Source: Ralstonia sp. SET104
GTDB taxonomy: Bacteria; Pseudomonadota; Gammaproteobacteria; Burkholderiales; Burkholderiaceae
Assembly: GCF_003851545.1 (NCBI RefSeq)
Contig: NZ_BHVX01000003.1
Span: 124,001 to 188,000 of the forward strand
Length of the DNA stretch: 64,000 bases
Direction of reading: 5' to 3'
Both the position numbers and the translations under genes were made by a program. This document shows positions 54,438-57,305 of this stretch, piece after piece; the stretch's first letter is position 1; every line of letters begins with the position of its first letter. Below the pieces are notes generated by a model. The model searched no databases and was not told the DNA's origin. It was given only the letters and a program-made list of their open reading frames with translations.

Positions 54438-54525
54438 TGGTGGGCCGGGTGGGATTCGAACCCACGGTGTCCTTTCGGAGGCGGATTATGAGTCCGCTGC
54501 CTGCAACCAGCACGGCGTCCGGCCC
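54438..54525 (-). tRNA. tRNA with CAU anticodon and long variable arm (Met/Ile2-type anticodon, atypical)
   Basis: Cloverleaf on the minus strand: acceptor GGGCCGG/CCGGCCC, discriminator A, encoded CCA (54438-54440), 3-bp D-stem GCC/GGC with GG in the loop, anticodon stem GCGGA/TCCGC with loop CTCATAA (anticodon CAT at 54488-54490), and T-stem GTGGG/CCCAC with TTCGAAT. The variable region is 15 bases (TCC-GAAA-GGA plus CACC), as in type II tRNAs. Position 8 is A and position 14 is T, the reverse of the usual U8-A14. It could read AUG, or AUA if lysidine-modified; it is not a standard Met, fMet or Ile2 tRNA. It lies after the rpoD terminator. Confidence 0.8.
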
Positions 54526-54534
54526 TGTACACCG

Positions 54535-54566
54535 AGAAAAAAAGAGACCCGGCGCTTAGGCCGGGC
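54535..54566 (-). terminator. Terminator of rpoD
   Basis: On the minus strand CCCGGC pairs with GCCGGG around CTAAGC and is followed by T-CTC-TTTTTTT. It lies about 55 bp past the rpoD stop and only ten bases before the tRNA, so the tRNA needs its own promoter, which I could not see clearly. Confidence 0.82.
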
Positions 54567-54620
54567 CTCGTACGGGATTTTACCCGAAAGTGGGCGCAAG
54601 CCCACTCAGAAATCACCTGC

Positions 54621-57251
54621 TTAACTACCTTCCAAGAAGCTCTTCAGCTTGTCGGAACGGCTCGGATGACGCAGCTTGCGCAGTGCCTTCGCTTCGATCT
54701 GACGGATACGCTCGCGGGTCACGTCGAACTGCTTGCCGACCTCTTCCAGCGTGTGGTCGGTGCTCATCTCGATGCCGAAGCGCATGCGCAGCACCTTGGC
54801 TTCGCGCGGCGTCAGCGAGTCGAGCACGTCCTTCACCACGCCGCGCATGGAGCCATGCAGCGCCGCTTCGGCCGGAGCCAGCGTATTCGTATCCTCGATG
54901 AAGTCGCCCAGATGGGAGTCGTCGTCGTCACCGATCGGCGTTTCCATGGAGATCGGCTCCTTGGCGATCTTCATGATCTTGCGGATCTTGTCTTCCGGCA
55001 TTTCCATCTTCTCGGCCAGCGTTGCCGGATCCGGCTCGTTGCCGGTTTCCTGCAGAATCTGACGCGAGATGCGGTTCATCTTGTTGATCGTCTCGATCAT
55101 GTGCACCGGAATGCGGATGGTGCGCGCCTGATCGGCAATCGAGCGCGTGATGGCCTGACGGATCCACCACGTGGCATACGTCGAGAACTTGTAACCGCGG
55201 CGGTATTCGAACTTGTCCACCGCCTTCATCAGGCCGATGTTGCCTTCCTGGATCAGATCGAGGAACTGCAGACCACGGTTCGTGTACTTCTTGGCGATCG
55301 AGATCACCAGACGCAGGTTGGCCTCGGTCATCTCGCGCTTGGCCTCGCGGGCGCGGCGCTCGCCTTCCGACATCTTGCGGTTGACGTCCTTGAGTTCCGT
55401 CAGCGGCAGTACCACGCGGGCCTGCAGGTCGATCAGCTTCTGCTGCAGTTCATGCACGGCCGGCACGTTACGCTCGACGATGACGCTGTACGGCTTGCCA
55501 TCGGCCACCACGGTCTCGATCCACTTGAGATTGGTTTCGTTGCCCGGGAAGCGCGAAACGAAGTCGCCACGCGGCATGCCGCACTTGTCGACCACGATGT
55601 TCAGGATGGCGCGTTCCAGCTTGCGCACTTCGTCCACCTGGCCACGCAGCGTGTCGCACAGGCGCTCGACGTTGCGGGCCGTGAAGCGAATCGTCATCAG
55701 CTCGGCCTGGATGGCTTCCTGCGCCTTCACGTAAGGCTTGGATTTGTAGCCTTCCTTCTCAAACGCACGACGCATCTTGTCGAACTGCTCGCCGATCACG
55801 CCAAACTTGATCAGCGCCGCCTGCTTAAGCTCTTCGAGTTGACGGGCCGAAGCTGCCGCAGCGCCGGCACCTTCATCGTCCTCGTCTTCCTCTTCGTCGC
55901 CTTCCTCTGCGGCTTCCTCGTCCTCGAACTCCTCTTCTTCCTCGGCCGCAGCGGCTTCGGCTTCAGCGTTCGGGTCGATCAGGCCGTCGATGAATTCGTC
56001 GATCTTGGATTCATCGTTGGCCACGCGCTCGCCCATGGCGAGGATTTCGGAAATGGTGACCGGGCAGGCCGAGATGGCCATGACCATGTCTTTCAGGCCG
56101 GCTTCAATGCGCTTGGCGATTTCAATTTCGCCTTCGCGCGTGAGCAGCTCGACGGTGCCCATTTCGCGCATGTACATGCGCACCGGGTCGGTCGTGCGGC
56201 CAAATTCGGAGTCAACCGTCGACAGCGCGGCTTCGGCTTCTTCCTCAGCTTCTTCTTCCGTGGTCACGGAAGGCGCGTTGTCGTTCAGGAGCAGCGTTTC
56301 GGCGTCCGGGGCCTGCTCGTACACGGCAACGCCGATGTCGTTGAGCGTGGCGACCAACGTTTCCATCGACTCCACGTCGACCATGTCGTCGGGGAGGTGA
56401 TCGTTGATTTCGGCGTAGGTCAGGTAGCCGCGCGATTTGCCCAGCTTGATCAGCGCCTTGAGCTTCTGGCGGCGCGCCTCGAGCTCTTCTTCCGAACCGC
56501 CTTGCTGCGAGGCAGCGAACTCCTTGAGCAGGGCCTTTTCCTTGGCCTTGCGGTCACGGGCCTTCAGCTTTTCAGTTTTCGGTGCCGGAGCGGCGGGGGT
56601 GTCAAATTCTTCAGTCACGTCCGTGCTGCTGTCGTCTGCCTGCGTCTCTGCCTTGGGCTTGCGGCCGCGCTTCTTGGGCTCGGCCGCTGCCTCGGCGCGG
56701 GGCGCAGGAGGAGTTGTGGGAGTGGCCTCTGCCTGGGCGGTGCGCTTGGTGTCTTCCGCGGCTGCCTTGGCTGGCTTGGCTGCGGTGCTGGTACGAGCGG
56801 TACCCGTCTTGGTTGCGCTTGCGCTGGCAGGGGTCTGCTTGCTCTCGACTTCGGTTGCTTTCGATTTCGCCACGGTGGTTGTCTTGCCCTTGAGTGCGAC
56901 GGAAGCGGCTGTGCCGCCAGGTCTGGCGCTCGTGCTCATCGACGTCGAGACCTTGCCTGAGGTTGAAGATTGGATCGCGCCCTTTGTGCGCGGTGCCGGC
57001 TTAGCCGGCTTGGCAGCGACGGTGATCTCGGCGGTCTGGCGCGGCTGGGCTTTCCCCGTCTTTGCCGGCGCAGTGGCCTTGACCCCTGTCTGTGCTGCCT
57101 GCCCTATATGAGTCCGACCATTTGCGACTTTCGTCGTTCCCGCTGCGGTTTTCCCGCCTCCGGCGCCGCGCGCCGATGAGGATCGCGTGGCAGAAACAGA
57201 AGCAGGACTGGCCTTGGAACTGGCCTTCGCGGAGGTCTTCACCTTCACCAT
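54621..57251 (-). CDS. rpoD: RNA polymerase sigma factor RpoD (sigma-70)
   Basis: Primary sigma factor, 876 residues from the ATG at 57251, which has GGGGGAG eleven bases upstream. Residues about 1-215 are a Lys/Ala/Thr/Pro-rich low-complexity extension. Region 1.1 follows, then 1.2 ([16 protein letters not shown]), a non-conserved acidic segment ([18 protein letters not shown]), region 2 ([36 protein letters not shown]), region 3 and region 4 ([36 protein letters not shown]). It is 169 bp after dnaG in the macromolecular synthesis order. A TTG 14 codons upstream is a less likely start. Confidence 0.96.
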
Positions 57252-57305
57252 GGGCACGCTCACTCCCCCAAAAATGGGAAAAAGGTCTTGCAATCCAAAC
57301 CGGCT

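Follow-up and report, generated by a model that had tools for sequence, protein, structure and literature searches.

A long-armed CAU tRNA after rpoD in Ralstonia and related Burkholderiaceae as the probable replacement of the canonical tRNA-Ile2

With good confidence, we regard a tRNA gene located next to rpoD in Ralstonia sp. SET104 as a functional type II tRNA-Ile2 that is very probably the sole reader of AUA codons and that replaced the canonical tRNA-Ile2 at the rpoD site in several lineages, probably from a mobile pool. We infer that this tRNA is expressed, carries lysidine at C34 and is charged with isoleucine, and the route and direction of transfer proposed below have the same standing. 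The gene lies in a 64,000-nt stretch of DNA, analysed as a whole and called the window, from a draft assembly of 58 contigs that is rated 100% complete. The features of the window considered here, all on the minus strand, are as follows.

54438..54525, minus strand: putative type II tRNA-Ile2 gene (CAU), 88 nt including the encoded CCA (sequence, ARAGORN, Rfam, fold and relatives)
54499..54516, minus strand: D-arm with a 3-bp stem, possibly with three more pairs past a bulged G (fold and relatives)
54486..54492, minus strand: anticodon loop CTCATAA (sequence and ARAGORN)
54466..54480, minus strand: 15-nt variable arm, composed of C, TCC-GAAA-GGA and CACC (sequence; the three stem pairs covary)
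54438..54495, minus strand: 3′ half that recurs alone elsewhere, sometimes beside a tyrosine integrase (att-like); the window holds the full gene only
54526..54536, minus strand: short leader, unlike the leader of canonical-type Ralstonia (flank comparison)
54544..54569, minus strand: terminator-like hairpin and T run between rpoD and the tRNA, also found in canonical-type Ralstonia
54621..57293, minus strand: longest ORF, start as predicted, taken to be rpoD (sigma-70 family), as in the preliminary description; locus marker (orthologues adjoin Ile2 in relatives)

ARAGORN found no other tRNA in the 64-kb window; it reads the anticodon as CAT and labels the gene tRNA-Met(cat). Additionally, the Rfam model RF00005 matches positions 54441-54525 with 46.7 bits (gathering score, 29). 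The minus strand of 54438-54525 reads GGGCCGG-AC-GCC...GGC-A-GCGGA-CTCATAA-TCCGC-CTCCGAAAGGACACC-GTGGG-TTCGAAT-CCCAC-CCGGCCC-ACCA. The cloverleaf, the 7-bp acceptor, the encoded CCA, the CTCATAA loop, A8, U14 and the 15-nt arm with its TCC/GGA stem, all listed in the preliminary description, are present in these letters, as is A73. With 15 nt and a 3-bp stem, the variable region has both the length (at least 10 nt) and the stem that define class II. The cloverleaf is also the fold of the isolated strand (-42.6 kcal/mol, z -3.23), which 0 of 200 shuffles equalled. The 3-bp D-stem described earlier is seen in the sequence, but in the fold three further pairs (14-24, 15-23 and 16-22, gene numbering) may extend it beyond a bulged G13. 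These pairs can form in 17 of 17 distinct relatives, one of them shifting from C-G to U-G; they are compatible with the relatives rather than proven by them, because 4/5 bases on one or both sides are invariant. Similarly, the letters A8 and U14 stand, but the swapped 8/14 pair proposed earlier is a reading of those letters only, and, in the folded model, U14 may belong to the D-stem instead of forming such a pair.

The stems of the tRNA covary among its relatives. In an alignment of 17 distinct rows, from which L092 (a shortened Cupriavidus copy) and the copies of genomes G065, G171 and G183 were left out, 391 of 391 stem cells are paired. All three pairs of the variable stem change on both sides, TCC/GGA becoming GGA/TCC, and both-sided changes also occur in one anticodon-stem pair and one T-stem pair; a further variable stem, TCA/TGA, is present at locus L164. 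The double-change cells number 27 vs a shuffled mean of 10.3, and 0 of 500 shuffles reached that value, while the number of pairs with double changes, five, was matched by 32 of 500 shuffles. The signal disappears when the partners are shifted out of register. Since the alignment rows are related, this covariation represents few events.

Full-length copies with 86-100% identity were found in 38 of 200 family genomes, distributed, by inferred genus names, over Ralstonia (10/16), Paraburkholderia (17/21), Trinickia (7/11) and Cupriavidus (4/21). Outside the family, no genome in the samples of the order (300) and the phylum (398) exceeded 72 bits, vs 117-118 bits for members, and the seven phylum matches at 70-72 bits were six tRNA-Tyr and one tRNA-Ser. 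When the collection of named genomes was scanned with a pattern, at least 119 stretches matched, i.e., at least 113 full copies and at least six 3′ halves, and the titles among the matches listed name Paraburkholderia, "Burkholderia sp.", Trinickia, Ralstonia, Cupriavidus and Burkholderiaceae only. Paraburkholderia xenovorans LB400 is one of the type II carriers. One exception in the 3′ end is G113, which encodes CTA and not CCA.

The genome of SET104 has 49 RF00005 matches in a profile search of its contigs. Based on the ARAGORN list, the other 48 loci include a single initiator and a single elongator Met(CAU) sequence and Ile(GAU), and neither a second Ile2 nor an Ile(UAU) was found among them; in the same list, tRNA-Cys(GCA) has two clearly distinct sequences. 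A type I Ile2 pattern had no match in 34 of the 38 carrier genomes, and the remaining four, all Cupriavidus, have a canonical Ile2 besides the type II gene. Because this pattern misses intron-bearing genes, the canonical 3′ exon was searched as well; it was absent in the same 34 of 38 carriers and present in the four Cupriavidus carriers and in 7 of 7 positive controls. Both Ile2 patterns are blind to some conceivable Ile2 forms, and these counts come from genomes not all of which are closed. The preliminary description had allowed either AUG or AUA as the codon; AUA is the likelier, since no other candidate reader of AUA was found in the genome and no other Ile2 in those 34 carriers. The suggestion of a special-purpose tRNA is not supported, because the tRNA looks like a housekeeping one. 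As separate observations, two canonical tRNA-Ile2 copies occur in Cupriavidus G069 (contig C21), G131 and G183 (contig C88), ~10-11 kb apart in G069 and G183, and a weak tRNA match of 30.9 bits at G000:C20:41687-41760 (L048) is probably the odd Gly(GCC)-like tRNA.

A decayed gene, or the remnant of an attachment site of an integrative element, would explain why att-like 3′ halves occur beside integrases, and broken acceptor pairs are indeed seen in 2 of the 15 named Cupriavidus copies among the matches listed and in one further plasmid copy. However, the compensatory stem changes and the carriers without any other Ile2 argue against it, as do 98 of 98 non-Cupriavidus full copies among the matches listed, which have all stems intact under a scan pattern that requires parts of the T-arm and ACCA and is therefore biased to intact genes. 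Drift restricted to genomes that retain a canonical copy would be expected of a sole tRNA that works, although the Cupriavidus numbers are small. We thus consider a decayed gene or remnant extremely improbable. Simple decay, one of the options raised earlier, was rejected on the covariation and the intact copies, which bear out the other option raised there, a noncanonical but real tRNA.

The meaning of AUA was examined in rpoD, dnaG and two other neighbours of the tRNA gene, all four verified as sense genes and aligned across the type II genomes; columns were counted because some genomes are entered twice under different loci. Of the 21 columns that have ATA at least once in a conserved context, 16 have mostly Ile among their other codons, two mostly Thr, one each mostly Met, Val and Arg, and none mostly Leu. 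At three rpoD columns with fully conserved context, the other codons are ATC or ATT only. In a codon comparison of SET104 with G087 over 101 unverified longest ORFs, the 21 ATA sites corresponded to 10 ATA, 7 Val, 3 Met and 1 Thr, with no ATC or ATT and no Ile signal, which speaks against our reading.

A second Met tRNA, in which C34 would be unmodified and MetRS would charge a reader of AUG, leaving AUA to some other means, would agree with the CAU anticodon, A73 and the ARAGORN label, and a further codon comparison, made without filtering, had a Met majority at 71 of its 141 sites. Nevertheless, an initiator and an elongator Met tRNA are already present, the MetRS acceptor elements U4-A69 and A5-U68 are absent from the window tRNA, which has the TilS elements instead, TilS is kept in 21 of 21 genomes tested (above the cut-off), and in the verified genes Met accounts for 1 of 21 AUA columns. 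Two ORF clusters, including the one with most Met columns, are antisense to rpoD (75/75 and 11/11 members). The reading of AUA as Met was rejected, since its signal comes partly from such antisense ORFs and the four verified genes gave Ile; a second Met tRNA is highly unlikely. A long open frame antisense to rpoD, at L095:8801-9376 (plus strand) and 74 more loci, is itself widely kept in Paraburkholderia-type loci.

The acceptor pairs G3:C70, C4:G69 and C5:G68 are present in the window tRNA, with U5-G68 in one of the 17 distinct rows. According to PMC12514573, the TilS of B. cenocepacia uses G3:C70 and the D-loop, and the E. coli enzyme uses C4:G69 and C5:G68. The D-arm of the window tRNA is wholly different from that of the canonical Ile2, a difference that speaks against our reading. 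The bacterial IleRS elements listed in PMC9976931 include U12-A23 and C29-G41; these are E. coli-type contributors and not a definition of Ile2. Both are absent here (C12-G and G29-C41), which also counts against the reading, although the canonical Ralstonia Ile2, which has U12-A23, lacks C29-G41 too.

Leucine charging, proposed in the preliminary description on account of A73, would make this tRNA a Leu adaptor, with LeuRS acting via the long arm and A73 and AUA read wholly or partly as Leu, as with the nematode nev-tRNA-Ile(UAU) in vitro. A73 and the large variable region, both present here, are Leu elements in PMC9976931, and nev-tRNAs take Leu in vitro (PMC4300185). Additionally, the own tRNA-Leu(CAA) of SET104 aligns with the window tRNA at 62 of 80 positions, and its loop differs by one base. 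However, the U8:A14 pair, important for LeuRS in some systems (PMC9976931), is absent in this tRNA, which has A8 and U14, and the AUA columns are mostly Ile (16/21) and never Leu (0/21); Leu charging is therefore not supported. Nematodes also retain a normal Ile(UAU), which the type II bacteria seem not to. We regard a Leu adaptor as very unlikely, and return to the tRNA-Ile2. Its gene would be transcribed after rpoD and the product matured, TilS would convert C34 to lysidine by means of the CAU loop and the three acceptor pairs, and IleRS would charge the lysidine-bearing tRNA, so that Ile would be inserted at AUA. Both enzymes would have to tolerate the long arm and the remodelled D-arm, and the loss of U8:A14 would help to exclude LeuRS.

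The same gene was sought after rpoD in other Burkholderiaceae, as the preliminary description had advised, and the best type II loci follow rpoD directly in 30 of 30 cases. Among the matches listed in the named collection, 95 of 95 non-Cupriavidus full copies with upstream DNA follow rpoD and three more come without upstream sequence, while 0 of 15 Cupriavidus copies are placed at rpoD, one of them without upstream sequence. In the type I Ralstonia G087, G105, G129 and G137, the gene after rpoD is a canonical tRNA-Ile2. The upstream flank with the hairpin and T run is common to both kinds of Ralstonia, which differ in the tRNA and in the leader that adjoins it, and the downstream flank is alike in parts between the type II G024 and the canonical G105, G129 and G137; therefore, the swap was about gene-sized. 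In SET104, the tRNA begins ~11 nt past the hairpin (54544-54569, minus strand), and a promoter search around the gene found no sigma-70-like promoter near it.

A further 22 genomes, picked for having neither type or another form, had rpoD in 21 cases (not in G144). In G114, G040, G085, G128, G150, G134, G155, G172 and G036, rpoD is followed by a canonical Ile2 whose anticodon loop is interrupted by an insert of ~250-300 nt, and other type I forms follow it in, e.g., G158, G097, G013 and G141. The label "neither type" was thus rejected for G114, G040, G085, G128 and G150, as the canonical gene with its insert is present. No credible Ile2 was found in the stretches examined of G184, G006 and G052, and the stretch of G166 is that of an rpoD paralogue. 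The loci with such inserts after rpoD are L277, L278, L279, L281, L283, L284, L286, L289 and L292. No Rfam family reached its gathering score in the 12 loci examined for intron class; group I introns in the tRNA-Ile2 of Acidovorax and Burkholderia are mentioned by the tRNAscan-SE authors (PMC8450103). Separately, L115 (G009:C1:333424-333500) and ~20 other g10 genomes have a short-arm Ile2-like tRNA with A8 after rpoD; at L115, its acceptor and T-stem are the same as those of the type II tRNA, of which it is possibly a relative or hybrid.

In our best reading, the type II gene displaced the standard Ile2 in place, and did so more than once. A quick rpoD tree with 59 rows, which gives no direction of change, requires the type II label to change 10 times, and the well supported branches force at least three changes; one row (L275), labelled canonical, actually has another type I form, which leaves the type II count unaffected. 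The reverse history, in which type II had long occupied this locus in Paraburkholderia and Trinickia before canonical, intron-bearing and other type I alleles displaced it, would fit the high share of carriers in the samples of these two genera (17/21 and 7/11). It would also fit a well supported node that pairs the canonical, intron-bearing G040 with the type II G136, in a tree blind to gain vs loss. The drop in score outside the family, in the order and phylum samples, speaks against it, as do the identical 88 nt in Ralstonia and Trinickia, whose rpoD ends are only ~84% identical. We therefore hold this reverse order to be unlikely and retain the displacement of the canonical gene, which would have been swapped out at the rpoD site by about gene-sized exchange in several Burkholderiaceae lineages, probably from a mobile pool.

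Plasmid copies, prophage-att halves and the long-arm CAU and CUU tRNAs of phage contigs suggest such a pool. A full copy is carried on nine Cupriavidus plasmid records, in a plasmid collection whose gene table has no RNA genes, so that missing annotation there means nothing. A 58-nt 3′ half lies near a tyrosine integrase on NZ_CP018813.1 (L082), a 27.6-kb Paraburkholderia "plasmid" that looks like an excised integrative element. The 22 loci on viral contigs, three of which are on one contig, comprise eight other long-arm CAU tRNAs, four long-arm CUU tRNAs, four of the Burkholderiaceae form and six 3′ halves only; a ninth other long-arm CAU tRNA (L139) lies within a tRNA array, and a stricter CUU pattern matched no viral contig. 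Like the window tRNA, the tRNAs at L139, L308, L312, L314, L315, L317, L321, L325 and L327 combine CAU with a long arm, but their acceptor and anticodon stems differ, also in L327, which shares A8 and the GCCGTG-TGGTTGCAGGC D-arm with the window tRNA. Five of six tested ORFs of L327 match phage families, mostly of unknown function.

Phage tRNAs of 87-88 nt with the same variable-arm plan (N, 3 bp, GAAA, 3 bp, CAYC), annotated as tRNA-Lys, occur in Ruegeria phage V10, Rhodobacter phage RcXuper and Xanthomonas phage XacN1. The V10 tRNA is identical to the window tRNA at 70 of 87 positions; these phage tRNAs differ in having CUU and not CAU, another D-arm and, in V10 and RcXuper, U8. A long variable arm is an unusual build for tRNA-Lys(CUU), as found in phages at L107:1472-1559, L109:1473-1560 and L110:488-574. 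In a search of the 398 phylum genomes with the Ruegeria phage tRNA, the top two matches were Burkholderiaceae type II tRNAs (2.3e-16 and 1.9e-13), and the next two were ordinary tRNA-Ser (~3e-8). A common ancestry of the phage long-arm tRNAs and the Burkholderiaceae type II tRNAs is plausible. An origin from tRNA-Leu(CAA) alone was rejected, as the phage long-arm tRNA-Lys is more similar. More tentatively, as a possibility short of one that we would favour, a class of long-arm CAU and CUU tRNAs may move among phages, plasmids and integrative elements; one of its lines would have repeatedly displaced the essential single-copy Ile2 at rpoD through swaps of gene size. Such an unusual body may be of advantage through escape from tRNA-cutting toxins, anticodon nucleases or intron insertion into the anticodon loop, which would hit the standard form.

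The closest known system is the canonical tRNA-Ile2 (CAU, lysidine by TilS), which shares with the window tRNA the CTCATAA loop, a near-identical anticodon stem, A73, the pairs G3:C70, C4:G69 and C5:G68, the place after rpoD and the presence of a TilS gene. In contrast, the window tRNA has a variable region of 15 nt vs 5 nt, another D-arm and A8/U14, and 60 of 77 aligned positions are identical. Long variable arms typically distinguish the tRNAs for Leu, Ser and, in bacteria, Tyr, and LeuRS and SerRS respond to such an arm as a positive element; tRNA-Sec also resembles the folded model of the window tRNA in its long D-stem. Allo-tRNAs and bacterial tRNA-Sec are likewise bacterial and long-armed, with unusual anticodons; the window tRNA has A73 where these have G73. 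Its acceptor/T-stem build is 7/5, unlike the 8/4 or 9/3 of allo-tRNAs given in PMC7609411. The nematode nev-tRNA-Ile(UAU) also has an Ile anticodon on a long-arm body (PMC4300185), but it is eukaryotic, accessory, charged with Leu in vitro and present alongside a normal tRNA-Ile. No earlier description of a long-arm bacterial tRNA-Ile2 was found in the titles and abstracts of the literature searched, a scope outside which most subscription papers lay.

Some Ralstonia, Paraburkholderia and Trinickia thus seem to read the rare AUA codon with a long-armed Ile tRNA encoded at the place of the ordinary gene. As ARAGORN labels this gene Met, annotations of how these genera decode AUA may be wrong. 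If our reading is true, IleRS and TilS accept the class II build in a housekeeping Ile tRNA that is kept by selection across many species, and identity and anti-identity rules, such as those involving A8/U14 and the variable arm, could be tested on a natural example. It also looks as if lineages have exchanged an essential tRNA gene whole, and similar tRNAs occur in plasmids and phages.
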